From Paludisphaera borealis (GTDB lineage: Bacteria > Planctomycetota > Planctomycetia > Isosphaerales > Isosphaeraceae), in assembly GCF_001956985.1 (NCBI RefSeq), contig NZ_CP019082.1, positions 434,001-498,000 of the forward strand: a stretch of DNA of 64,000 nt. The letters are read 5' to 3'. The translations under genes were made by a program, and so were the position numbers. Below, one piece after another: positions 4,589 through 38,279 of this stretch (the first letter of the stretch is position 1; each line of letters starts with the position of its first letter). The notes below the pieces were generated by a model, which saw only the letters and a program-made list of their open reading frames with translations, had not been told where the DNA came from and did no database searches.

Positions 4589-5449
4589 ATGTCCAGTCCG
4601 CCGCTTGCCCGCCCTCCCGAGTCGATGCGGCCCGATCGCATGGAGGTCATGACGCCGATCGGCGCCGGCGCGTTCCTCGACGTCGAACCCGGCGTGCGGC
4701 TCGAATGCCTGGTGGGCGCTCACAACGGCACCCGGGGCCTGACCACCGGCCTTGTGACGATCGCCCCTTCGACGGCCCTCTCCTACCACACGCACACGTT
4801 CGCCGAGTCGATCACGCTGCTCAAGGGGCGGGCGATCGCGGCCGTCGAGGGCCGCGAGTACGTCCTCGAACCGCTCGACAACGTCGTCATCCCACGCGGC
4901 CCGGCGCATCAAGTCAGGAACCTGTCGGACACCGAACCGGCGATCCTCCACGTCGCGCTGGCTAGCGACGCGCCGACGCGCACGATCGTCGATGATACGT
5001 TCCCGCGCATCGCGATGCCGGACGAAGCCAACGGCCTCGCCGGCGCCGAGCGGTTCAACCGGTTCCGGACGGCCGAGCGGTTCGCGGCGGGGCCGAACAC
5101 GGCGTTCATCGACTTCTTCAACGAGACGCTCATGCCGGGCCTGGAGATGAGCGGCGGCTACGGCCTGTTCCTCCCCGGCGGCCGGCTCCCGGCCCACGTC
5201 CACGACTTCGACGAGTCGATCTCGATCATCGACGGCGACGCCTTGTGCATCGTCGAGGGCCGCCGGCACCCGATGCGCGACGCGACCGCCTTGCAGCCGC
5301 GCGGGCGGGTTCATTACTTCATCAATGAATCCGATGAGCCGATGGCCATGATCTGGGTCTACGCCGGGCCGTCGCCGATCCGGATCGTGGTCGACGAGAG
5401 CTGCGCGACCGTTGAAGGCAACCCCTGGCGCGAAGGAGCCACCCGATGA
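4589..5449 (+). CDS. Double-cupin protein
   Basis: A 286-residue protein with two cupin domains (about 25-130 and 165-275). The first has STALSYHTHTFAESITLLKG and the second GGRLPAHVHDFDESISIIDG, each supplying His/Glu metal ligands. No signal peptide is seen, so it is cytoplasmic. Bicupins in sugar-acid operons are often isomerases or dioxygenases, but no specific function can be assigned. It starts 3 bases after the aldolase stop and its own stop overlaps the next ATG (ATGA), so translational coupling is likely. Confidence 0.8.
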   Translation: MSSPPLARPPESMRPDRMEVMTPIGAGAFLDVEPGVRLECLVGAHNGTRGLTTGLVTIAPSTALSYHTHTFAESITLLKGRAIAAVEGREYVLEPLDNVVIPRGPAHQVRNLSDTEPAILHVALASDAPTRTIVDDTFPRIAMPDEANGLAGAERFNRFRTAERFAAGPNTAFIDFFNETLMPGLEMSGGYGLFLPGGRLPAHVHDFDESISIIDGDALCIVEGRRHPMRDATALQPRGRVHYFINESDEPMAMIWVYAGPSPIRIVVDESCATVEGNPWREGATR

Positions 5450-6501
5450 GCCAGACGCCGAAGCGGTTCCGGGTGGCCTTCACCGGCGACTTCTTCGCGG
5501 CCGACGGGTCGACGAAATATCCCGACGTCGGCCTGTCGATCTTCGACGGCCGCGACGACGTCGAATGGGTCAAACTCGCCGAGCATCGGACGCCGATCGG
5601 CGCTGACCAGATCGCCGACGCCGGCGCGCAAGGCGTCGTCGTCTTGACGCCCGCCGTGACGGCCGAGACCGTATCTCAGAGCCGCGATTTGCTGGCGATC
5701 GGCCGGTTCGGCGTCGGCTACGACGCGGTGGACGTGGCCGCCTGCACCGCCGCCGACGTCGCTGTCTTCATCACGGCGGGCGCGGTCGATCGGTCGGTCG
5801 CCGAGGCGACGGTCGGCTGGATGATCGGCCTCTGCCACAACGTCCGCATCAAGGACGACCTGGTCCGCACCGGGAGATGGGACGAGCGGTCGAAGTATAT
5901 GGGGCGCGACCTGCGCGATCGGACCTTCGGCGCGATCGGCTTCGGGGGGATCGGCCGGGCGACCGTCGGCTTGCTGCGAGGGTTCGGCATGAAGCCGCCG
6001 CTCGTCTTCGACCCGTTCCTCGACGCCCGCGCGGCCGACGAGTTGGGTGTCCGATCCGTCGGCCTCGACGAGCTGCTGGCCGAGGCCGACTTCGTTTCCA
6101 TCCATTGCCCACTCACCGACAAGACCCGCGGTCTGATCGGCGCCCGCGAGATCGGGCTGATGAAGCCCGACGCCTACCTGATCAACACGGCGCGGGGCGG
6201 CATCGTCGACGAGGACGCTCTGTACGACGCCCTGGCGGCGGGGCGGATCGCCGGCGCGGCCCTCGATTGCTTCGCGGAGGAGCCGGTCGTCCGGCCGCAT
6301 CGGTTCGGCACGCTCGACAACGTGCTGCTGGCGCCGCACTGCATCGCCTGGACCGACGAGTTGTTCCGCGACATCGGCCGCGCGGCCTGTCAGGGGATGC
6401 TCGACCTCGCGCTCGGCCGGACGCCGCGCGGGGTGGTCAACCCCGAGGTCTTCGACCGCCCTGGATTCCAGGAAAAATGGGCCCGACTGCGATGTCGATA
6501 A
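5446..6501 (+). CDS. D-isomer-specific 2-hydroxyacid dehydrogenase
   Basis: A 351-residue NAD-dependent oxidoreductase. The Rossmann glycine motif is TFGAIGFGGIGRATVGLL (about residues 163-180). The substrate/cofactor region is YLINTARGGIVDEDALYDAL with the conserved Arg. The usual catalytic Glu/His region appears as DCFAEEPV and LLAPHCIAWT. It would reduce a 2-keto acid or oxidise a 2-hydroxy acid in the cytoplasm. It overlaps the cupin stop by 4 bases. Closest general type is a phosphoglycerate dehydrogenase/C-terminal-binding-protein-like enzyme; the substrate is unknown. Confidence 0.87.
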   Translation: MSQTPKRFRVAFTGDFFAADGSTKYPDVGLSIFDGRDDVEWVKLAEHRTPIGADQIADAGAQGVVVLTPAVTAETVSQSRDLLAIGRFGVGYDAVDVAACTAADVAVFITAGAVDRSVAEATVGWMIGLCHNVRIKDDLVRTGRWDERSKYMGRDLRDRTFGAIGFGGIGRATVGLLRGFGMKPPLVFDPFLDARAADELGVRSVGLDELLAEADFVSIHCPLTDKTRGLIGAREIGLMKPDAYLINTARGGIVDEDALYDALAAGRIAGAALDCFAEEPVVRPHRFGTLDNVLLAPHCIAWTDELFRDIGRAACQGMLDLALGRTPRGVVNPEVFDRPGFQEKWARLRCR

Positions 6502-28472: not shown

Positions 28473-30329
28473 ATGTTCAGAACGCTCCGGTCGAGGCTTC
28501 TCATCGGGATCGCGCCTCTACTCGCCATCATGGTGGCTTTGGGAGTGTGGGCCATCGTCATGTTCACCCGCCTCGGCGGAAACATCGACGTCATCCTGCG
28601 CGAGAATTACAAGAGCGTCCGGGCCGCTCAGGACATGAAGGACGCCCTGGAACGCATGGATTCGGCCGCCCTGTTCGCCATCGGCGGTCGGGACGATCGG
28701 GCTCGTAAGCAATACGACGAGTTCCGGCCCGTCTTCGAGACCAACCTGAACATCGAACAGAACAACATCACCCTGCCCGGCGAGCAGGTGATGGCCGACG
28801 AACTGACGAGACTCTACAGCGATTACCACAGGCTGAGCGACCGGTTCTACACCCTGCCTTCCGGCTCGCCCGAGCGATCCGAATTGTATTTCAGTGAACT
28901 GCTGCCGACGTTCGATGCGATCAAGCAGCAGGCCGACGCGGTGCTGGACCTCAATCAACGGAACATGGAAACCGAGAACGACCGCGCCCGCGACGCCGCG
29001 ACCGTCTCGGTCCGGCTCATGATCCTGGCCCTCCTCGGGTCGGCGGCGGTTGCCACGGTGATCGCCTTGGTCCTGAGCCGGTCGATCCTCGTGCCGATTC
29101 TCGCGGTGACGGACGCGGCTCGGGCCCTGGGCAAAGGGGACTACGACCAGGTGGTGCCGGCCACGACGCGCGACGAGCTGGGCGAGCTGGCCGTCGCCTT
29201 CAACGCGACCGCCCGCCGCCTGCGCGAGTATCAGCAGGCCGGGACGGCCAGGCTCGTGCGTGCGCAACAGACGGCGCAGGCGACGATCGACACGTTCCCC
29301 GACCCGGTGGTGGTCGTCGATCCCGTGGGCTCCGTCGAAAGGGCCAACCCGGCCGCCCGGCGGATTCTCGGCGTCTCGTCATCGGAGGCGGACGCCCCCT
29401 GGATTCCCCTGCCCCAGCTCCAGACGCCGCTGGCCGAAGTGCTCGCCGGCCGCGGCGATTACCTGCCTTCCGGCGTCGAACAGGCCATCTGCCTTCGAGA
29501 CGACGGCCAGGAACGGTTTTACCTTCCCCGGGTCCTGGGGATGCGCGACGACGATGGGCCGCTGGGAGCCGCCGTGGTGCTCCAGGACGTGACCAAGTTC
29601 CGCCTGCTCGATCAGCTCAAGAGCGACATGGTTTCCACCGTCAGCCACGAGTTGAAGACCCCGCTGACCAGCATCCAGATGGTCGTTCATCTCTTGCTGG
29701 AGGAGGCCGTCGGTCCGCTCTCCACGAAGCAGATCGAGCTGCTGATGGCGGCGCGTCAGGATTCGGACCGCCTCCTCGCGATGCTCAACGACCTCCTCGA
29801 CCTGGCTCGAATCGAACAGGGCGGCGTCAAGCTCGACCTCAAGCCTGTCACGTCCAAGGATCTCGTGGACCAGGCCGTCGAGCGGTATGAGGCCAGGGCG
29901 CAAGATGCGGGCGTCGCTCTTGAGAGCCATGTCGCGCCCGAACGGGCCGCGGTCCTGGTCGATCGGGAGCGGATCGATCACGTTTTCGACAATCTGATCG
30001 GCAATGCGCTGGCCCACACCGGCCGAGGCGGCTCGGTCCGCGTGTCGGCCGAGGCCGATGACGGCTCCGTCCGATTCGCGGTGACGGACACGGGCGAGGG
30101 CATCCCGGCCGAGCACTTGCCGAGGATCTTCGAGCGGTTCTACCGGGTGCCGGGTTCCCGGGTCAGCGGCGGAGCCGGGCTGGGCCTGGCCATCGCCCGC
30201 GAGATCGTCACGGCCCACGGCGGTCACATCGAGGCGAGCAGCGAACTGGGTCAAGGCAGCGCCTTCACCGTCCTTCTCCCCTCCGCCCCGCGAGAAAACG
30301 GAACACCCAGCGCGGAGGTCGACATATGA
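28473..30329 (+). CDS. KinB-like sensor histidine kinase
   Basis: A 618-residue membrane kinase. I start at 28473 (MFRTLRSRLLIGIAPLLAIM), with CGAGG 5 bases upstream, over longer starts. TM1 about 9-31; a periplasmic helical sensor about 32-180 (LRENYKSVRAAQDMKDALERMD, like the KinB sensor domain); TM2 about 185-208; HAMP about 209-262; PAS about 270-375 (TFPDPVVVVDPVGSVERANPAARR); HisKA with phospho-acceptor His in VSHELKTPLTSIQM; and ATPase motifs DNLIGNALAHT, DTGEGIPAEHLPRIFERFYR and GAGLGLAIAREI. The AlgB-like regulator upstream is its probable partner. Its stop overlaps the next ATG. Confidence 0.92.
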   Translation: MFRTLRSRLLIGIAPLLAIMVALGVWAIVMFTRLGGNIDVILRENYKSVRAAQDMKDALERMDSAALFAIGGRDDRARKQYDEFRPVFETNLNIEQNNITLPGEQVMADELTRLYSDYHRLSDRFYTLPSGSPERSELYFSELLPTFDAIKQQADAVLDLNQRNMETENDRARDAATVSVRLMILALLGSAAVATVIALVLSRSILVPILAVTDAARALGKGDYDQVVPATTRDELGELAVAFNATARRLREYQQAGTARLVRAQQTAQATIDTFPDPVVVVDPVGSVERANPAARRILGVSSSEADAPWIPLPQLQTPLAEVLAGRGDYLPSGVEQAICLRDDGQERFYLPRVLGMRDDDGPLGAAVVLQDVTKFRLLDQLKSDMVSTVSHELKTPLTSIQMVVHLLLEEAVGPLSTKQIELLMAARQDSDRLLAMLNDLLDLARIEQGGVKLDLKPVTSKDLVDQAVERYEARAQDAGVALESHVAPERAAVLVDRERIDHVFDNLIGNALAHTGRGGSVRVSAEADDGSVRFAVTDTGEGIPAEHLPRIFERFYRVPGSRVSGGAGLGLAIAREIVTAHGGHIEASSELGQGSAFTVLLPSAPRENGTPSAEVDI

Positions 30330-31012
30330 GTGATTCGCGTCGCATCCTGATCGTCGAGGACGAGCCCAACGTAAGGCTCGTCTTCTGCACGGCGCTTCTC
30401 TCGAACGACTACACCCTCTCCACGGCCGCGGATGGGGAGTCCGCCCTGCGCTGGCTGAAGCAAGAGCCGGCCGACGTGGTCCTGCTCGACCTCCATATGC
30501 CCGGGATGGGCGGGATGGGATTCCTCCGGCGCCTCCGCGAGGCGGGGATCGACGTCCCCGTGGTGATCGTGAGCGCCCACGACCAGGTCCCTAACGTCGT
30601 CCAGGCGATGCGCCTGGGGGCCATCGACTTCGTGCCCAAGCCCGTCACGCCCGAGGCCCTCCGTCGAATCGTCGCCGAGGTCCTCTCGCGAACCGCCAAG
30701 CTCGCGCCGCCCGCCAAGCCCGAGCCGAAAGCCGCTCCGGCCTCGGCCTCGGGCGCGACGGCCGATGCGTTGACGCGGGCCAAGGCGGCCTTCAATCGTC
30801 GGGCGTTCGGTGATGCCGAGGCGGCCCTGCGGCAGGCGATCGGAGGAGTCTCCCGCTGCGCCGAGGGGCATTACCTGCTCGGTGTTCTGCACGAGTTGCG
30901 AGGCGAGCGGCACGCCGCCTATTCGGCCTACAGAGCCGCCGTCCAGGCCGACCCGGAGTTCGAGCCGGCCACGTTCCACCTGATGAAGTACTTCGACGAC
31001 AAGTTGATGTAA
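30326..31012 (+). CDS. Response regulator with receiver and TPR-like C-terminus (second copy)
   Basis: A 228-residue paralogue of the protein at 25811-26602. The receiver (about 5-120) has ILIVEDEPNVRL, phospho-acceptor Asp in VVLLDLHMPGMGG, and FVPKPVTPEAL. An Ala/Pro linker (KLAPPAKPEPKAAP) leads to a TPR-like end (AKAAFNRRAFGDAEAALRQAIGG, HYLLGVLHELRGERHAAYSAYRAAV). There is no DNA-binding domain. It overlaps the kinase stop by 4 bases, so it is probably a direct phosphotransfer partner, and it is followed by kdp. Confidence 0.9.
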   Translation: MSDSRRILIVEDEPNVRLVFCTALLSNDYTLSTAADGESALRWLKQEPADVVLLDLHMPGMGGMGFLRRLREAGIDVPVVIVSAHDQVPNVVQAMRLGAIDFVPKPVTPEALRRIVAEVLSRTAKLAPPAKPEPKAAPASASGATADALTRAKAAFNRRAFGDAEAALRQAIGGVSRCAEGHYLLGVLHELRGERHAAYSAYRAAVQADPEFEPATFHLMKYFDDKLM

Positions 31013-31365: not shown

Positions 31366-31444
31366 ACCGTCGCGAGGAAGCCCCGCCCGGACGGTCCCAC
31401 CTCGGATTCTTCTTCGCAGACACCTATTGTTTGGAGACCCTTAC

Positions 31445-33202
31445 GTGCCATCGACGTTGTCCTGGCTACACCCATTCTGGGCGTTCGCCCTGCCCATCGC
31501 CATGTCGTTCCCGCTCGGCTGGCTCATGTGGCGGTCGCTCGACGTGCCCGAGGATCGCGCGGGGCGCGGCCTCGACGCCCTGCCGATGTTCCTGCGCCGC
31601 CTGATCGATCGCCGCCCGCCCGCGAAGATGGACTGGAGGCGGTACGCCTTCGCGATGCTCGCCTTCAACGTGGCGCTGTTCGTCCTGTCGTTCGCGCTGC
31701 TCTATTTCCAGGACAAGATCCCGCTGTTGAACCCCGACGGCAAGGGGCCGCTGACGACCCTGGGATACAAGGACGCGGCGGGCGTCCAGCACGACGGCGC
31801 CGACACGGCGGTGATCTTCAACACCGTCTGCTCGTTCGTCACCAATACGAACCTCCAGCACTACTCGGGCGAGCAGAACCTGTCCTACTTCAGCCAGCTT
31901 GCCGCGATCGTCTGGCTGATGTTCGTCACCCCGGCCGCCGGTCTCTGCGTGATGCTGGCCACGCTCCGGGGGCTGCGGGGCGACAAGGACATGGGCGACT
32001 TCTACGTCGACTTGATGCGCGGGCTTCTCTTCGTGATCATCCCCTACTGTCTCCTCGTGGCGGTGCTCCTGGTCGGGATGGGCGTGCCGATGACCTTCGA
32101 GAAGGCGGCGACGGCGGCCACGATCGACGGCGCGGCGACGAAGATGGAGACGCAGACCATTGCGCGAGGCCCGGTGGCGGCGCTGGTGGCGATCAAGCAG
32201 GCCGGGACCAACGGCGGCGGCTTTTTCGGCCCGAACTCGGCCCACCCGTTCGAGAACCCGTCGCCCTGGAGCAACATGTTGGCCCTGGTTTCGATCATCG
32301 TCCTGCCGATGTCCTCGATCGTGATGGCCGGGCTGATGCTCAAGAACAGGAAGCATGCGATGGTCATCTACGGCGTGATGCTGGCGTTCCTGGCCGCCGG
32401 CGCCTTGATCGCCATTCGCGCCGAGGTCGAGCCGAGCGCAGCGACCAGGGGCCTGCCGGTGGTCCAGGGACCGAACATGGAGGGCAAGGAGGTGCGGCTC
32501 GGCCCCGTGGCCGCCGCGACATGGTCCGCCATCACGACGGCGACTTCCAACGGCTCGGTCAACAGCATGCACGACAGCCTCAACCCGATCGCCGGCGCCG
32601 TGCCCATGAGCTTGATGATGCTCAACGTCGTCTTCAGCGGGATCGGCGCCGGGTTCGAAAACATGCTCATGTACATCGTCGTCGCGGTCTTCATCGCCGG
32701 CCTGATGGTGGGCCGAACGCCGGAGTACCTCGGCAAGAAGGTCGAGGCGAAGGAGGTCAAGCTGGCGATGCTGGCGATCCTGATCCATCCGCTCCTGATC
32801 TGCGCCGGAGCGGCCCTGTTCGCGGCGACGGACTGGGGGGCGAAGACGACGGCCAACCCCGGATCGCACGGGTTCAGCGAGATCCTTTACGAGTTCACCT
32901 CGGCGGCGGCCAACAACGGCTCGGGGTTCGAGGGCCTTGCGGACAACAACCCGGCCTGGAACATCGCGACGGGGGTCGTCCTGCTGCTGGGCCGGTTCCC
33001 GGCGCTGATCCTGCCGCTGGCCGTCGCGGGTTTCCTCTCGACGAAGAAGCGCGTCCCGCAAACCACGGGCACGCTGCGAACCGACAACCTGACGTTCGCC
33101 GGGATGCTGCTGGGGACGGTGCTCCTCGTCGGCGCCCTGTCGTTCATGCCCGCGGTCGTCCTCGGCCCGATCGCCGACCACCTCTCCGCATTGAAGCACT
33201 GA
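31445..33202 (+). CDS. kdpA: K+-transporting ATPase channel subunit KdpA
   Basis: A 585-residue polytopic subunit that forms the K+ filter and channel. Four filter repeats are visible: VCSFVTNTNLQHYSGEQ, AGTNGGGFFGPNSAHP, TATSNGSVNSMHDSLNP and TSAAANNGSGFEGL. I use the GTG at 31445, preceded by GGAGA, rather than the in-frame TTG at 31427. Length is typical. It sits between kdpF and a long inverted repeat before kdpB. Confidence 0.96.
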   Translation: MPSTLSWLHPFWAFALPIAMSFPLGWLMWRSLDVPEDRAGRGLDALPMFLRRLIDRRPPAKMDWRRYAFAMLAFNVALFVLSFALLYFQDKIPLLNPDGKGPLTTLGYKDAAGVQHDGADTAVIFNTVCSFVTNTNLQHYSGEQNLSYFSQLAAIVWLMFVTPAAGLCVMLATLRGLRGDKDMGDFYVDLMRGLLFVIIPYCLLVAVLLVGMGVPMTFEKAATAATIDGAATKMETQTIARGPVAALVAIKQAGTNGGGFFGPNSAHPFENPSPWSNMLALVSIIVLPMSSIVMAGLMLKNRKHAMVIYGVMLAFLAAGALIAIRAEVEPSAATRGLPVVQGPNMEGKEVRLGPVAAATWSAITTATSNGSVNSMHDSLNPIAGAVPMSLMMLNVVFSGIGAGFENMLMYIVVAVFIAGLMVGRTPEYLGKKVEAKEVKLAMLAILIHPLLICAGAALFAATDWGAKTTANPGSHGFSEILYEFTSAAANNGSGFEGLADNNPAWNIATGVVLLLGRFPALILPLAVAGFLSTKKRVPQTTGTLRTDNLTFAGMLLGTVLLVGALSFMPAVVLGPIADHLSALKH

Positions 33203-33348: not shown

Positions 33349-33406
33349 GCGATGAGCATTGCGGCGCTCGATCCAAGACAATACTCACGAAGGGGAAGTG
33401 AATACG

Positions 33407-35545
33407 ATGAGCCTCGACACCGAGGTCGGAGCGCCCGCTCGGGACGCCTCCGGAGCCCAGGCATTCAGACTCCAGCGCCGTAGTACGAGGAAGCTCCGCC
33501 TCTTCGAGCCGGCCCTCGTGCGGATGGCGACCGTCCAGTCCTTCAAGATGCTCGACCCGAGGGAAATGGCCCGCAACCCGGTCATGTTCCTGGTCGAGGT
33601 CGGCACCGTGCTCACGGCGATCGTGACCGTCCAGTCGATCGTCCAGCACGCGGCGATCGGGCTGATCGTCTACCAGGGGGTGCTGGCGGCCCTCCTGTTG
33701 CTGACGGTCTTGTTCGCCAACTTCGCCTCGGCCCTGGCCGAGGCGCGGGGCAAGGCCCAGGCCGACAGCCTGCGGGCGACCCGCGCCGACACGCCCGCCT
33801 TCCGCCTGCACGACCTGAAAAGCGCCTCCGGCGAGATCGTCCCCTCGACGACGCTTCGCGCCGGCGATTACGTGGTCATCGAGGCCGGGCAGGTCATACC
33901 GACCGACGGCGAGGTCGTCGAGGGGGTCGCGTCGGTCGACGAGAGCGCCATCACCGGCGAGAGCGCGCCGGTGATCCGCGAGGCCGGCGGCGACCACTCG
34001 GGCGTCACCGGCGGCACCCGCGTCCTGTCCGACCGGATCGTCGTCCAGGTGACGGCCGAACCCGGGCAGAGCTTCCTGGACAAGATGATCGCCCTGGTCG
34101 AGGGCGCCGCTCGGCAGAAGACCCCCAACGAGATCGCGCTCACGATCGTCCTGGCCGCGTTCTCGTTGATCTTCCTGATCGTCACGGCCTCGCTCTACCC
34201 GATGGCCCGCTACTTCGGCCTCACGTTGGACATCGCGACTCTGATCGCGCTTCTGGTCTGCCTGATCCCGACCACCATCGGCGCGCTGCTGGCGGCGATC
34301 GGCATCGCGGGCATGGACCGGGCCCTGGCGGCGAACATCATCGCCAAGAGCGGCAAGGCGGTCGAGGTGGCCGGCGACATCGACACCCTGCTCCTGGACA
34401 AGACCGGCACGATCACCATCGGCAACCGCCGAGCCACGCAGTTCTTCCCACTGAACGGCACTTCGCCCAACGACATCGCCCGGGTGTCCGGCCTGGCCTC
34501 GATGGCCGACTCCACGCCCGAGGGGAAGAGCATCCTCGACCTCGCCCGCCAGCAGTCGGCCGTCGACGGCCGCCCACCGGACGACGCGACCTTCATCGAA
34601 TTCACCGCCCACACCCGCATGAGCGGCGTGGACCTTCCCGACGGGCCGAGGCTCCGCAAGGGCGCCCCGAACACCATCGCCAAGTACGTCCAGGACCAAG
34701 GCGGCGGCATCCCCGACGGGTATCAGCGGACCGTCGACGCGATCGCCTCCGGCGGCGCGACCCCGCTCGCCGTGGCCGAGGACGACCGGATCGTCGGCGT
34801 GATCAAGCTGGAGGACATCCTCAAGCCCGGCATCTCCGAGCGGTTCGCCCGGCTCCGCCAGATGGGACTGCGCGTGGTGATGGTCACCGGCGACAATCCG
34901 CTCACGGCCACCGCGATCGCCGCCGAGGCCGGCGTCGACGACTTCATCGCCCAGGCCACGCCCGAGGCCAAGCTCGCCTATATCCGCAAGGAGCAGGAGG
35001 GGGGCAAGCTCGTGGCCATGATGGGCGACGGCACCAACGACGCCCCCGCGCTCGCCCAGGCCGACATCGGCGTGGCGATGAACTCGGGCACGCAGGCCGC
35101 CAAGGAGGCCGGCAACATGGTCGACCTCGACAGCGACCCGACCAAGCTCATCGAGGTCGTCGAGATCGGCAAGCAGCTCCTGATGACCCGGGGCGCATTG
35201 ACCACGTTCTCGATCGCCAACGACCTGGCCAAGTACTTCGCGGTCATCCCCGCGATGTTCATCGTCACCTTGCCCGAGTTGAAGGTCCTCGACGTGATGG
35301 GTCTGGCGACGAACGGCGGCGCGTACTCGGCGATCCTGGCGGCGGTGATCTTCAACGCGATCATCATCCCGCTGCTGATCCCGATCGCGCTGAAGGGGGT
35401 CAAGTACCGCCCCGTCGGCGCCGGCGCCCTGCTGCGGCGGAACCTGTTGGTTTACGGCCTGGGCGGCGTGATCGCGCCGTTCATCGGCATCAAGCTCATC
35501 GACGTCGCGATCGACCCGCTCCTGGCGTTGGTCGGCATCATTTGA
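33407..35545 (+). CDS. kdpB: K+-transporting P-type ATPase subunit KdpB
   Basis: A 712-residue P-type ATPase that energises KdpA. Motifs: actuator loop ITGESAPV, phosphorylation site [13 protein letters not shown], nucleotide-binding [11 protein letters not shown], hinge [10 protein letters not shown] and [12 protein letters not shown]. Hydrophobic helices flank these in the usual order. I use the ATG at 33407, with AGGGGAAG about 9 bases upstream; an in-frame start 16 codons earlier is less likely. kdpC follows after 42 bases. Confidence 0.97.
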
Positions 35546-35587: not shown

Positions 35588-37090
35588 ATGATCCGCGAGA
35601 CCGTCAACGCCCTCCTGGCCTGCGTCGTGACCTTCGCCCTCTGCGCCATCGCCTACCCGGCGGCGGTCTACGGGCTCGGGCACACGCTGTTCCCCAAGCA
35701 GGCCCGGGGGAGCCTCATCGAGCGCGACGGCAAGATCGTCGGCTCGGAGTTGATCGCCCAGCCGTTCGCCTCGGATAAATATTTCTCGCCCCGCCCCTCG
35801 GCGGCCGGCGCCACCGGCTATGCCGCTGACGCGGCCAGCGGCTCGAACCTGGCGACGACCAACCCCGCCCTGCGCGACCGGATCGCGTTGGATGCGGCCC
35901 GGCAGATCGCTTCCCGGACCGGTGACGCCGAACTGAAAACGAGCCTCGAACGCCTCGACGCCCTGCAAGCCGAGCTGAAGGCCAAGAAGGAGATCAAGGA
36001 GCCGTCCCAGGACGACGCCGACGCCGTCGTCAAGCTGGAAGGGGAGGTTCCCACGGCTCAAGCCAAGGTCCTCGATCGTTCGTCAGGCTTGGGCGAGTCG
36101 GACGAATTCCGGGTTCCGATCGACCTCGTGACCACCTCCGGAGCGGGGCTCGATCCGCACATCAGCCCCGAGGCCGCGCGCTACCAGGCACCCCGCGTGG
36201 CCGCCGCGCGCGGCCTTACTCCCGAACGCGTCGAGGCGCTGATCGAGGCGGACACGGATCGATCGGGCGAGTTCATCGGCGCGCCGTCGCGAGTCAACGT
36301 CCTCCTCCTGAATCTGGACCTGGACCGAGAGGCTCCGGGGCCGAAGCCTCCGGCCGTGACGCCGACCGCGACTCCCTCGGTCGCAGCTCCGCCGGCCCCC
36401 GTCGCCGAGGCCGTATCGGCAATCACGGCTTCCCTGAACGCGCTATCGAGCCGCGTCGACACGTTGCAGGAACGCGTCGGAGCAGCACCCGACGCGAATG
36501 CGGCGACCGAGGTTAAGGACCTGCGGGCGCGCGTCGACAGGATCACCGACGATCTCAGTCCCACCGCCGAGTCGGTCCGACGCATGGACGAATTGGTCAA
36601 GCGCGTCGCGACCCTGGGCCGGGACCTCGATGCCGTGCGATCCGAGGCGAAGCTGGCCAGGGGAGGAGATCCGTCGGCCGAGTCCGACAAGAAGATCCAG
36701 GCGATCAGGATGGAGGTCCAATCGCTGAAGGGCTCGTTCATGCGTCTGGAGGCGGCCTCGCGCGACGCCAAAGCGCAACCGCCCGGCCTCGACCCGGCCG
36801 TCAAGCTGTTCCAGAGTAAGCAGTACGCCGAGTCGGCCCGGGCCTTCCGCGCTCTCACCCTGTCCCACCCCGACGACGCCCGCGTCTGGTACTTCGCGGC
36901 GCTGGCGCAGGGGCTCTCCACCAGCCAGTGGCAGGGAGCCGAGGTCCTGGAGTTGGTCCACAAGGGCGGAGAGCGGGAACAGGCCGGCACTCCGTCGTCC
37001 GAAACCATCGACAAGGCGTTCGCCGGGCTGACCGGGGAGACCGGCCGGGACTGGCTGGCGTACTACCGCCAGCTCGTCGTGAGGCGGTGA
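35588..37090 (+). CDS. kdpC: KdpC subunit with internal and C-terminal extensions
   Basis: A 500-residue protein, against about 190 for ordinary KdpC. The KdpC part is clear: one N-terminal helix (TVNALLACVVTFALCAIAYP), GSELIAQPF, YFSPRPSAA, then SGAGLDPHISPEAARYQAPR and PSRVNVLLLNLDLD near residue 240. About 50 charged residues are inserted in it (about 115-165, LKTSLERLDALQAELKAKKE). After residue 245 come a Pro/Ala linker, a long coiled coil (about 275-395) and a TPR-like end (LFQSKQYAESARAFRALTLS, residues about 405-430 on). The frame is open throughout with no stop, so this is a true fusion. The added part would lie on the same side of the membrane as the KdpC soluble domain. Confidence 0.93.
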   Translation: MIRETVNALLACVVTFALCAIAYPAAVYGLGHTLFPKQARGSLIERDGKIVGSELIAQPFASDKYFSPRPSAAGATGYAADAASGSNLATTNPALRDRIALDAARQIASRTGDAELKTSLERLDALQAELKAKKEIKEPSQDDADAVVKLEGEVPTAQAKVLDRSSGLGESDEFRVPIDLVTTSGAGLDPHISPEAARYQAPRVAAARGLTPERVEALIEADTDRSGEFIGAPSRVNVLLLNLDLDREAPGPKPPAVTPTATPSVAAPPAPVAEAVSAITASLNALSSRVDTLQERVGAAPDANAATEVKDLRARVDRITDDLSPTAESVRRMDELVKRVATLGRDLDAVRSEAKLARGGDPSAESDKKIQAIRMEVQSLKGSFMRLEAASRDAKAQPPGLDPAVKLFQSKQYAESARAFRALTLSHPDDARVWYFAALAQGLSTSQWQGAEVLELVHKGGEREQAGTPSSETIDKAFAGLTGETGRDWLAYYRQLVVRR

Positions 37091-37145: not shown

Positions 37146-38279
37146 ATGCCCAAGACCGACGCGGCCCGGCCCAGCCCCGAGCAGTTCCTCAATCTCATTC
37201 GCCGCCAGGAGCGGGGCCGGCTGAAGGTCTACCTCGGCTCCAACGCGGGTGTGGGCAAGACCTACTCCATGCTTCGCGAGGGGCAGCGGCTCAAGAAGCA
37301 GGGAGTGGACGTCGCGATCGGCATCGTCGAGACCCACGGCCGCGCCGAGACCGCCGAGCAGCTCGGCGACCTGGAGGTCATTCCTCCCCGTCAGATCGAG
37401 TACCGGGGCGTGACTCTTAAAGAAATGGACCTCGACGCGATCCTGTCCCGCCGCCCGACCATCTGCCTGGTCGACGAGCTGGCCCATACGAACGCGCCGG
37501 GCAGCCGTCACCCCAAGAGGCATCAGGACGTCGAGGATTTGCTCCGCGCCGGCATTCATGTGATCACTACGGTGAACGTCCAGCACTTGGAGAGCCTCTA
37601 CGACAACGTCGAGCGGATCACGGGCATGAAGGTCAAAGAACGACTGCCCGACTCCGTGATCGGCGAGGCGGATCAGATCGTCAACGTCGACCTGTCAGTC
37701 GAGGACCTGCTGGAGCGAATGAAGGCTGGCAAGGTCTACCCGCCCGAGCGGGCCGAGCGGGCGATGGAGAACTTCTTCACCCCCGCCAACCTGACGCGCC
37801 TGAGGGAGATCACGCTGACGGAGGTGGCCCACCTGATCGACCGGCGCGGCCGCCGGGCCGAGGCCGACCGGGGCCCGTCCTCGGCCGCGGAGCGCGTGAT
37901 GGTGGGCCTCTCCAGCCGCAGTCCCAACGCCCCCGCCCTGCTCCGCAAGGCGGCTCGCCTGGCCGACCGACTCAACTCCCCCTGGTACGCCGTCTACATC
38001 CAGACCCCGGCTGAGGACCTGACGAAGACCGACGCCGCGACGCACCGCATCTTGACCAAGAATCTGGAGCTGGCCCACCAGCTCGGCGGCATCCCGATGA
38101 CGTTCAAGGGCGGGGACGTGCCGAGCACCATCCTGGCCTTCGCCAGGGAGTACGACATCCGCGTTGTCGTCATGGGCAAGAGCCACCAACCCTGGAGGCG
38201 ACGCCTCTTCGGCGGTTCGATCTTGGAACGCCTCATCCGCGACTCTTCCGGCCTGGACGTGCTGATCGTCGACGTCTGA
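37146..38279 (+). CDS. KdpD sensor module without kinase domain (KdpD-N plus USP)
   Basis: A 377-residue protein matching only the cytoplasmic front part of KdpD. KdpD domain about 10-225: Walker A LGSNAGVGKTYSML, VETHGRAETAEQL, LVDELAHTNAPGSRHPKR, DVEDLLRAGIHVITTVNVQH. A universal-stress-protein domain spans about 240-377 (VGLSSRSPNAPALLRKAARLA, VVMGKSHQPWRR). The four-helix membrane domain, GAF and histidine kinase of full KdpD are absent, and no KdpE follows. It may bind c-di-AMP or ATP and signal through another kinase. It lies 55 bases after kdpC in the same operon. Confidence 0.9.
   Translation: MPKTDAARPSPEQFLNLIRRQERGRLKVYLGSNAGVGKTYSMLREGQRLKKQGVDVAIGIVETHGRAETAEQLGDLEVIPPRQIEYRGVTLKEMDLDAILSRRPTICLVDELAHTNAPGSRHPKRHQDVEDLLRAGIHVITTVNVQHLESLYDNVERITGMKVKERLPDSVIGEADQIVNVDLSVEDLLERMKAGKVYPPERAERAMENFFTPANLTRLREITLTEVAHLIDRRGRRAEADRGPSSAAERVMVGLSSRSPNAPALLRKAARLADRLNSPWYAVYIQTPAEDLTKTDAATHRILTKNLELAHQLGGIPMTFKGGDVPSTILAFAREYDIRVVVMGKSHQPWRRRLFGGSILERLIRDSSGLDVLIVDV

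Follow-up and report, generated by a model that had tools for sequence, protein, structure and literature searches.

KdpC has been described as a periplasm-facing subunit with a single TM helix near the selectivity filter of KdpA, and its role has been called uncertain (PMC6255902). The same source reports no movement of KdpC when pump states are compared. CpoB has been reported to be a trimeric coiled coil with TPRs and to bind TolA and PBP1B (PMC7391070). In Deinococcus geothermalis, a short KdpD/Usp protein is described as a c-di-AMP-controlled serine kinase that acts on KdpB (PMC11018627). We searched the literature on KdpC with planctomycetes, extensions, TPR and fusions (including PMC10654040), and no tailed KdpC was found in the titles and the first parts of the abstracts. 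Judged by their titles, publications on Isosphaeraceae and potassium are mainly soil and plant community studies.

The stretch of DNA analysed here, called the window, covers 64,000 nucleotides of the Paludisphaera borealis genome. The published genome of strain PX4 is finished and has a chromosome of 7.498 Mb and plasmids of 111.833 and 42.519 kb (PMC5352709). The genome that we used comprises 7,651,896 bases in 3 contigs, and the window lies on the contig of 7,497,544 bases. The window kdpC is located directly 3′ of kdpA and kdpB; kdpABC is intact and is followed by a short kdpD. The features are as follows, with the evidence in brackets:

31427..33202, + strand: kdpA (Pfam KdpA, 1.5e-204)
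33359..35545, + strand: kdpB, with the TGES, DKTGT and GDGTNDAP motifs (Pfam; motifs)
35588..37090, + strand: kdpC, 500 aa, with an insert and a C-terminal tail (ORF; PF02669; curated KdpC cut-offs)
35588..35908, + strand: KdpC core, N-terminal part, residues 1-107, with the TM helix, YFSPRPSAA and SGSNLATTNP (Pfam KdpC stretch 7-107; alignment A3)
35909..36097, + strand: insert, residues ~108-170, a predicted antiparallel helical hairpin (absent from most relatives' KdpC; model)
36098..36337, + strand: KdpC core, C-terminal part, residues 171-250 (residues 175-250 aligned to solved KdpC by phmmer)
36338..36412, + strand: Pro/Ala/Thr-rich linker, residues 251-275 (pLDDT <50 at 247-269; sequence reading)
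36413..36772, + strand: coiled-coil stalk, residues 276-395 (helices 272-299, 303-358 and 364-394; periodicity against shuffles)
36773..37087, + strand: TPR-type C-terminal domain, residues 396-500 (fold model, profile, structure matches)
37146..38279, + strand: short kdpD, with KdpD and Usp domains (Pfam KdpD 1.9e-94, Usp 2e-12)

The kdpC gene is a single uninterrupted ORF of 500 codons that starts with ATG, with its ends exactly at 35588 and 37090, and an AAGGA stretch lies a few bases 5′ of the start codon. An earlier note on this DNA had claimed one frame for the whole protein; the claim holds, and a homologous in-frame fusion exists in a second genus. Pfam KdpC (PF02669) matched the protein in two stretches (8e-58; 195.6 bits against a cut-off of 24.1), and the whole 500-residue protein scored above the cut-offs of NF001454 (196 vs 178 bits) and TIGR00681 (168.7 vs 152.55 bits). 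It shares the TM helix, the conserved blocks and an operon with kdpA and kdpB with known KdpC (PF02669; TIGR00681; KdpFABC structures 5mrw, 6hra and 7bgy). However, compared with the solved KdpC chains of 187-208 residues, it has a 63-residue insert (~107-171) and 250 extra C-terminal residues. Against the PDB KdpC chains, phmmer aligned residues 15-112 and 175-250 and skipped the insert. A helix was predicted at residues 2-34 in the model of the 500-residue protein, and its orientation was taken from the description of E. coli KdpC. In this full-length model the KdpC core was unfolded (block pLDDT 34-51 at residues 21-90), and the geometry of the tail arm and the insert is not readable from it.

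The order kdpA-kdpB-kdpC was kept in four other loci (L060, L111, L112 and L115). No histidine kinase domain was found in the short KdpD (37146-38279), which scored 365.6 bits against NF038185, under the cut-off of 550 for that model. Because this neighbour is of the KdpD/Usp kind, the cytoplasmic control of the window's Kdp pump is probably of the usual type, and what is new would lie outside. P. borealis has a second KdpC, without insert and without tail, in a separate kdp operon (C1:4902589). A gene upstream of kdpA, at window positions 30326-31012, encodes a response-regulator receiver whose C-terminus is of the TPR kind; L060, L112 and L115 have comparable genes close to kdp. The five genomes of the same genus (G001-G005) have KdpCs only of other types, whose identity with the two halves of the window's KdpC core is 40-64%; this operon type was thus either lost there or gained by P. 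borealis.

We then considered the tail. The hydrophobic helical period of residues 276-395 was reached by 0 of 1000 shuffles. Residues 396-500 were predicted to form six helices (mean pLDDT 95.6), and a profile of 27 tail copies (A4) matched consensus TPR proteins at 2.1e-10 and 3.3e-9. Single tail copies mostly fall under the Pfam cut-offs: TPR_16 appeared at E ≤ 0.01 in 23 of 29 single rows, and the window's row scored 20.4 bits against a cut-off of 32.7. Most of the 50 structure matches shown for the TPR head were TPR proteins; their Z-scores of 8.6-10.1, over 65-98 residues, are modest for helical repeats, and the Foldseek E-values for the tail were weak (best 0.13 and 0.15). In the head alignment of 29 copies, 9 columns are invariant; over 27 rows of alignment A2, the invariant residues are D430, A431, R432, W434, Y435, A438, W448, E464, W489 and R494 in window numbering. 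The earlier note had described KdpC blocks split by a helical insert and followed by a linker, a coiled coil and a TPR-like end. This anatomy agrees with the KdpC cut-offs, the model and the TPR profile, and "TPR-like" was right because the fold is confident and the 27-copy profile matches consensus TPR proteins. The tail is unlikely to be translated on its own from an internal start codon, since residues 246-300 hold only GTG 257 and TTG 293 and no purine-rich stretch was seen upstream by eye.

The survey of KdpC lengths covered Planctomycetota and plasmids. A coil or coil/TPR tail was found in 4 of the 39 Isosphaeraceae KdpC genes with both halves, namely the window, L002/L060, L005 and L012. 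L060/L002 is a homologous fusion of 503 residues in a second genus, 52% identical and placed in the order kdpA-kdpB-kdpC-short kdpD. The KdpC of L012 has a coil-like tail without the TPR head. Two close KdpCs in the same operon type (L003 and L004) and a KdpC fragment in G044 have no tail. Elsewhere in the phylum, 34 KdpCs were read, of which none was tailed and none had more than 9 extra residues; they represent 34 of the 40 genomes with a match, the others being G000, G018, G080 and G210, whose KdpCs were read in another set, and G307 and G421, whose fragments were left out. In the 21 tailless kdpC genes with a KdpD motif found downstream (L031 was left out for an ambiguous match), kdpD starts 1-98 nt past the kdpC stop, so there is no space for a hidden tail remnant in those genes; the other tailless genes gave no KdpD motif. 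Viral contigs gave one KdpC relative. Of 72,556 plasmid records, 320 matched KdpC, and none of these matches covered 80% of the query. One further KdpC (L156, G033:C369) has about 90 extra C-terminal residues that are Pro/Ser-rich and unlike the coil/TPR tail by eye; G033 shows 10% contamination.

To find relatives of the tail, a profile of the tail head (29 copies) was searched in 118 genomes, 45 from Isosphaeraceae and 73 others. We obtained 36 strong matches (E ≤ 2.9e-30), spread over 22 of the 45 Isosphaeraceae genomes, and none in the 73 other genomes, where the best match was 1.3e-12. Three of the 36 sit on KdpC (G000, which is P. borealis, G006 and G033). Of the other 33, one in G039 was left out, and the 32 that were read are separate proteins in which a variable N-terminal part is followed by the coil and the head. 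P. borealis has no second strong copy of the module; its next match is at 9.1e-4.

A TM-like segment, defined as a 20-residue stretch with mean hydropathy ≥1.50, precedes the coil in 25 of 26 ORFs in one set of loci, the 26th being the KdpC fusion L060. The same holds for 25 of 26 standalone proteins in a second set, the exception being a frame-broken gene. The positive-inside bias of the standalone proteins is weak (K/R 62 before the TM segment and 47 after; more before in 11 of 25, one being without an upstream flank). These TM-like segments suggest that, as on KdpC, the module usually sits past a membrane anchor. At the sequence level, the tail is homologous to the part of the standalone proteins beyond the TM-like segment, with the topology of the latter predicted from hydropathy. 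The standalone proteins, for example those of Paludisphaera soli (L052) and Singulisphaera acidiphila (L058), have the coiled coil, the TPR-type head and the invariant residues in common with the window tail. They differ in that they have their own TM-like segment after the variable N-terminal part and are located away from kdp in the loci read. The N-terminal part has 44-362 residues, an upper limit because it was counted from the last stop codon (the ORF of L070 is 867, and L063 is cut by a contig end). A Pfam scan of ten standalone proteins revealed no other domain above cut-off, and one passes TPR_14. The earlier note had held that the fusion would be in doubt if relatives carried the tail as a separate gene. 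A separate module does exist at other loci, but the fusion stands, with its in-frame homologue in the same operon of another genus.

Eight standalone proteins form one clade (100/100; L055, L056, L059, L061, L065, L066, L067 and L070). Genes for an RND pump (ACR_tran), an HlyD adaptor or an OEP channel were near them in 8 of 8 loci, within the flanks fetched, and near the other standalone proteins in 1 of 16 loci (L044). These efflux families were named from 3 representatives and otherwise assigned by clustering. This exposes an uncharacterised Isosphaeraceae protein family, and in one of its branches all loci read have efflux-pump genes nearby. Five standalone genes (L047, L054, L058, L062 and L064) are beside RRM and NYN-domain genes. 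In G002, the standalone gene at L155 5448-6418 lies in two frames (matches 5448-6089 and 6119-6418), which indicates a frameshift or an assembly error.

Since KdpC faces the periplasm, its C-terminal extension should lie in the periplasm, as judged from the known topology of KdpC. A periplasmic coil with TPRs resembles CpoB (YbgF) as described in PMC7391070, where a coiled coil is likewise followed by a TPR domain, and we therefore prefer a docking arm as the reading of the tail. However, the window tail is fused to a pump subunit, and its operon is kdp instead of tol-pal. No CpoB model was among the Pfam and NCBIfam matches listed at E ≤ 0.1, where HMMER filters may drop weak matches, and CpoB was absent among the structure matches listed, which excludes nothing. 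We tentatively propose, giving it slightly less than an even chance, that the tail of KdpC is a periplasmic docking arm formed by the ectodomain of an Isosphaeraceae envelope scaffold; oligomerisation, docking and an effect on transport are what we infer from this architecture. The periplasmic domain of KdpC would bear the linker, the coiled-coil stalk and the TPR head of a scaffold family whose other members have a TM segment of their own as anchor. In KdpFABC, the stalk would stick out on the external side and offer the TPR head to a putative envelope partner for binding. Such binding would dock or cluster the pump at particular envelope sites. The tether that the earlier note had suggested would fit this proposal. 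The 63-residue hairpin would lengthen a KdpC helix, and it may brace the arm or add a contact.

The architecture, homology and distribution behind this proposal have been shown: an intact KdpC sequence, a tail homologous to separate proteins, predicted folds, a homologous fusion in a second genus, and an occurrence limited to this family in the genomes searched. It is far more doubtful that the Isosphaeraceae coil/TPR module is a general docking system, which would attach RND pumps through neighbouring genes and Kdp through fusion to a shared envelope scaffold. If this were true, the docking system would couple K+ uptake spatially or mechanically to the state of the cell envelope. A natural armed KdpC with known homologues and tailless close relatives also makes the role of KdpC testable through one part.

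The tail may also be a tolerated appendage left by a past fusion, which would hardly affect the pump and be lost time and again; we consider this unlikely, though it is the most serious rival of the docking arm. The patchy occurrence of the tail, present in only four of the 39 KdpCs, makes a dispensable appendage possible. On the core tree, built from 26 of 43 KdpC rows, the tail requires at least four changes, and a single clade of the four tailed cores was rejected (p-AU 4.3e-6). Together with the absence of the tail from L003 and L004, this is as expected of something dispensable and counts against the docking arm. The absence of the head in L012, the fast divergence of tail and insert, and the weak charge bias were set against the docking arm as well, the truncated form and the divergence being in line with an appendage. 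Identity between the window's KdpC and L060 was highest in the core (82% and 69% for its two parts) and lower in the head (47%), the insert (40%), the coil (36%) and the linker (28%), so the tail and the insert diverge faster than the KdpC core. However, all parts have stayed in frame in two genera whose tails are 39% identical, and pN was lower than pS in all parts of the two full fusions (coil 0.45/0.73, TPR domain 0.35/0.71), with synonymous sites near saturation. The family-invariant residues of the head are also intact in both full fusions. A neutral frame of 250 residues would be unlikely to persist at such divergence, which argues against a mere appendage.

We also examined the history of the fusion with a tail tree of 30 standalone and 4 fused rows, in which the strong matches in G019, G032, G039 and G043 were left out. 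Three fused tails group at 91/87. All four tails group only at 27/26, and their KdpC cores are not one clade. An old fusion with repeated loss is preferred here, with repeated fusion as a possible alternative. In P. soli and G002, the standalone gene is flanked by two conserved genes, which are about 156 kb apart in P. borealis, where no standalone was found. These positions do not establish a hand-over from a lost standalone gene, as G001, G004 and G005 have no strong copy of either form.

Another explanation is that the coil mainly oligomerises the pump: the tails of two or three KdpC subunits would join through their coils and so bring KdpFABC complexes into clusters, and the TPR head would serve as a cap instead of binding a partner. 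No part of the tail is longer than the coil, whose periodicity is strong, and L012 retains a coil-like tail without the head. However, across the standalone family conservation is highest in the TPR head, which favours the head as the binding part. We consider this explanation rather improbable, below the tolerated appendage. A sensing role, in which the TPR head would detect a periplasmic or envelope condition and relay it through KdpC to K+ entry at KdpA, is very improbable. It is compatible with the position and uncertain role of KdpC described in PMC6255902, and the KdpD/Usp kind of neighbour (PMC11018627) means that outside sensing could sit elsewhere. However, the immobility of KdpC reported in PMC6255902 speaks against gating via KdpC, and no ligand-binding family was found above cut-off in Pfam or NCBIfam. 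That kdpC was joined to an unrelated frame by an error of sequencing or assembly, such as the frameshift that the earlier note had considered, can be dismissed, because nothing was found in its favour and there are a homologous fusion with the same operon order in a second genus (L060/L002), two more tailed KdpCs (L005 and L012), a coding bias that continues through the tail (GC3 0.82 and 0.92) and a finished PX4 genome.

The insert has a history of its own. It sits between the helix after NPALRDRI and the VPIDLVTTS block, and was modelled as helices 93-111, 114-134 and 141-169 (block pLDDT 76-93). Its hydrophobic helical period was reached by 33 of 1000 shuffles. The insert was also found in L002 (63 residues), L003 (63) and L004 (44), and is missing in the KdpC of most relatives. 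In a tree built without the insert, the cores of the window and these three form one branch (92/87), so that the insert needs one change. Because L003 and L004 share the insert and are tailless, the insert and the tail are, on this comparison, separate innovations.

Other inserts were observed in the same loop. The KdpCs of G005, G033, G055, G117, G070 and G091 (L103, L104, L105, L106, L109 and L110, respectively) have an insert that is 122-160 residues long and, by eye, contains several Trp. These six KdpCs form one clade (SH-aLRT 99), and their insert is unrelated to that of the window by eye. The KdpC of G210 (L107) has a third kind of insert in the same region, with about 88-100 residues and partly Pro/Ala-rich. 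Different inserts in the same place suggest that the loop tolerates insertions, and it looks like an insertion hot spot of KdpC in planctomycetes.
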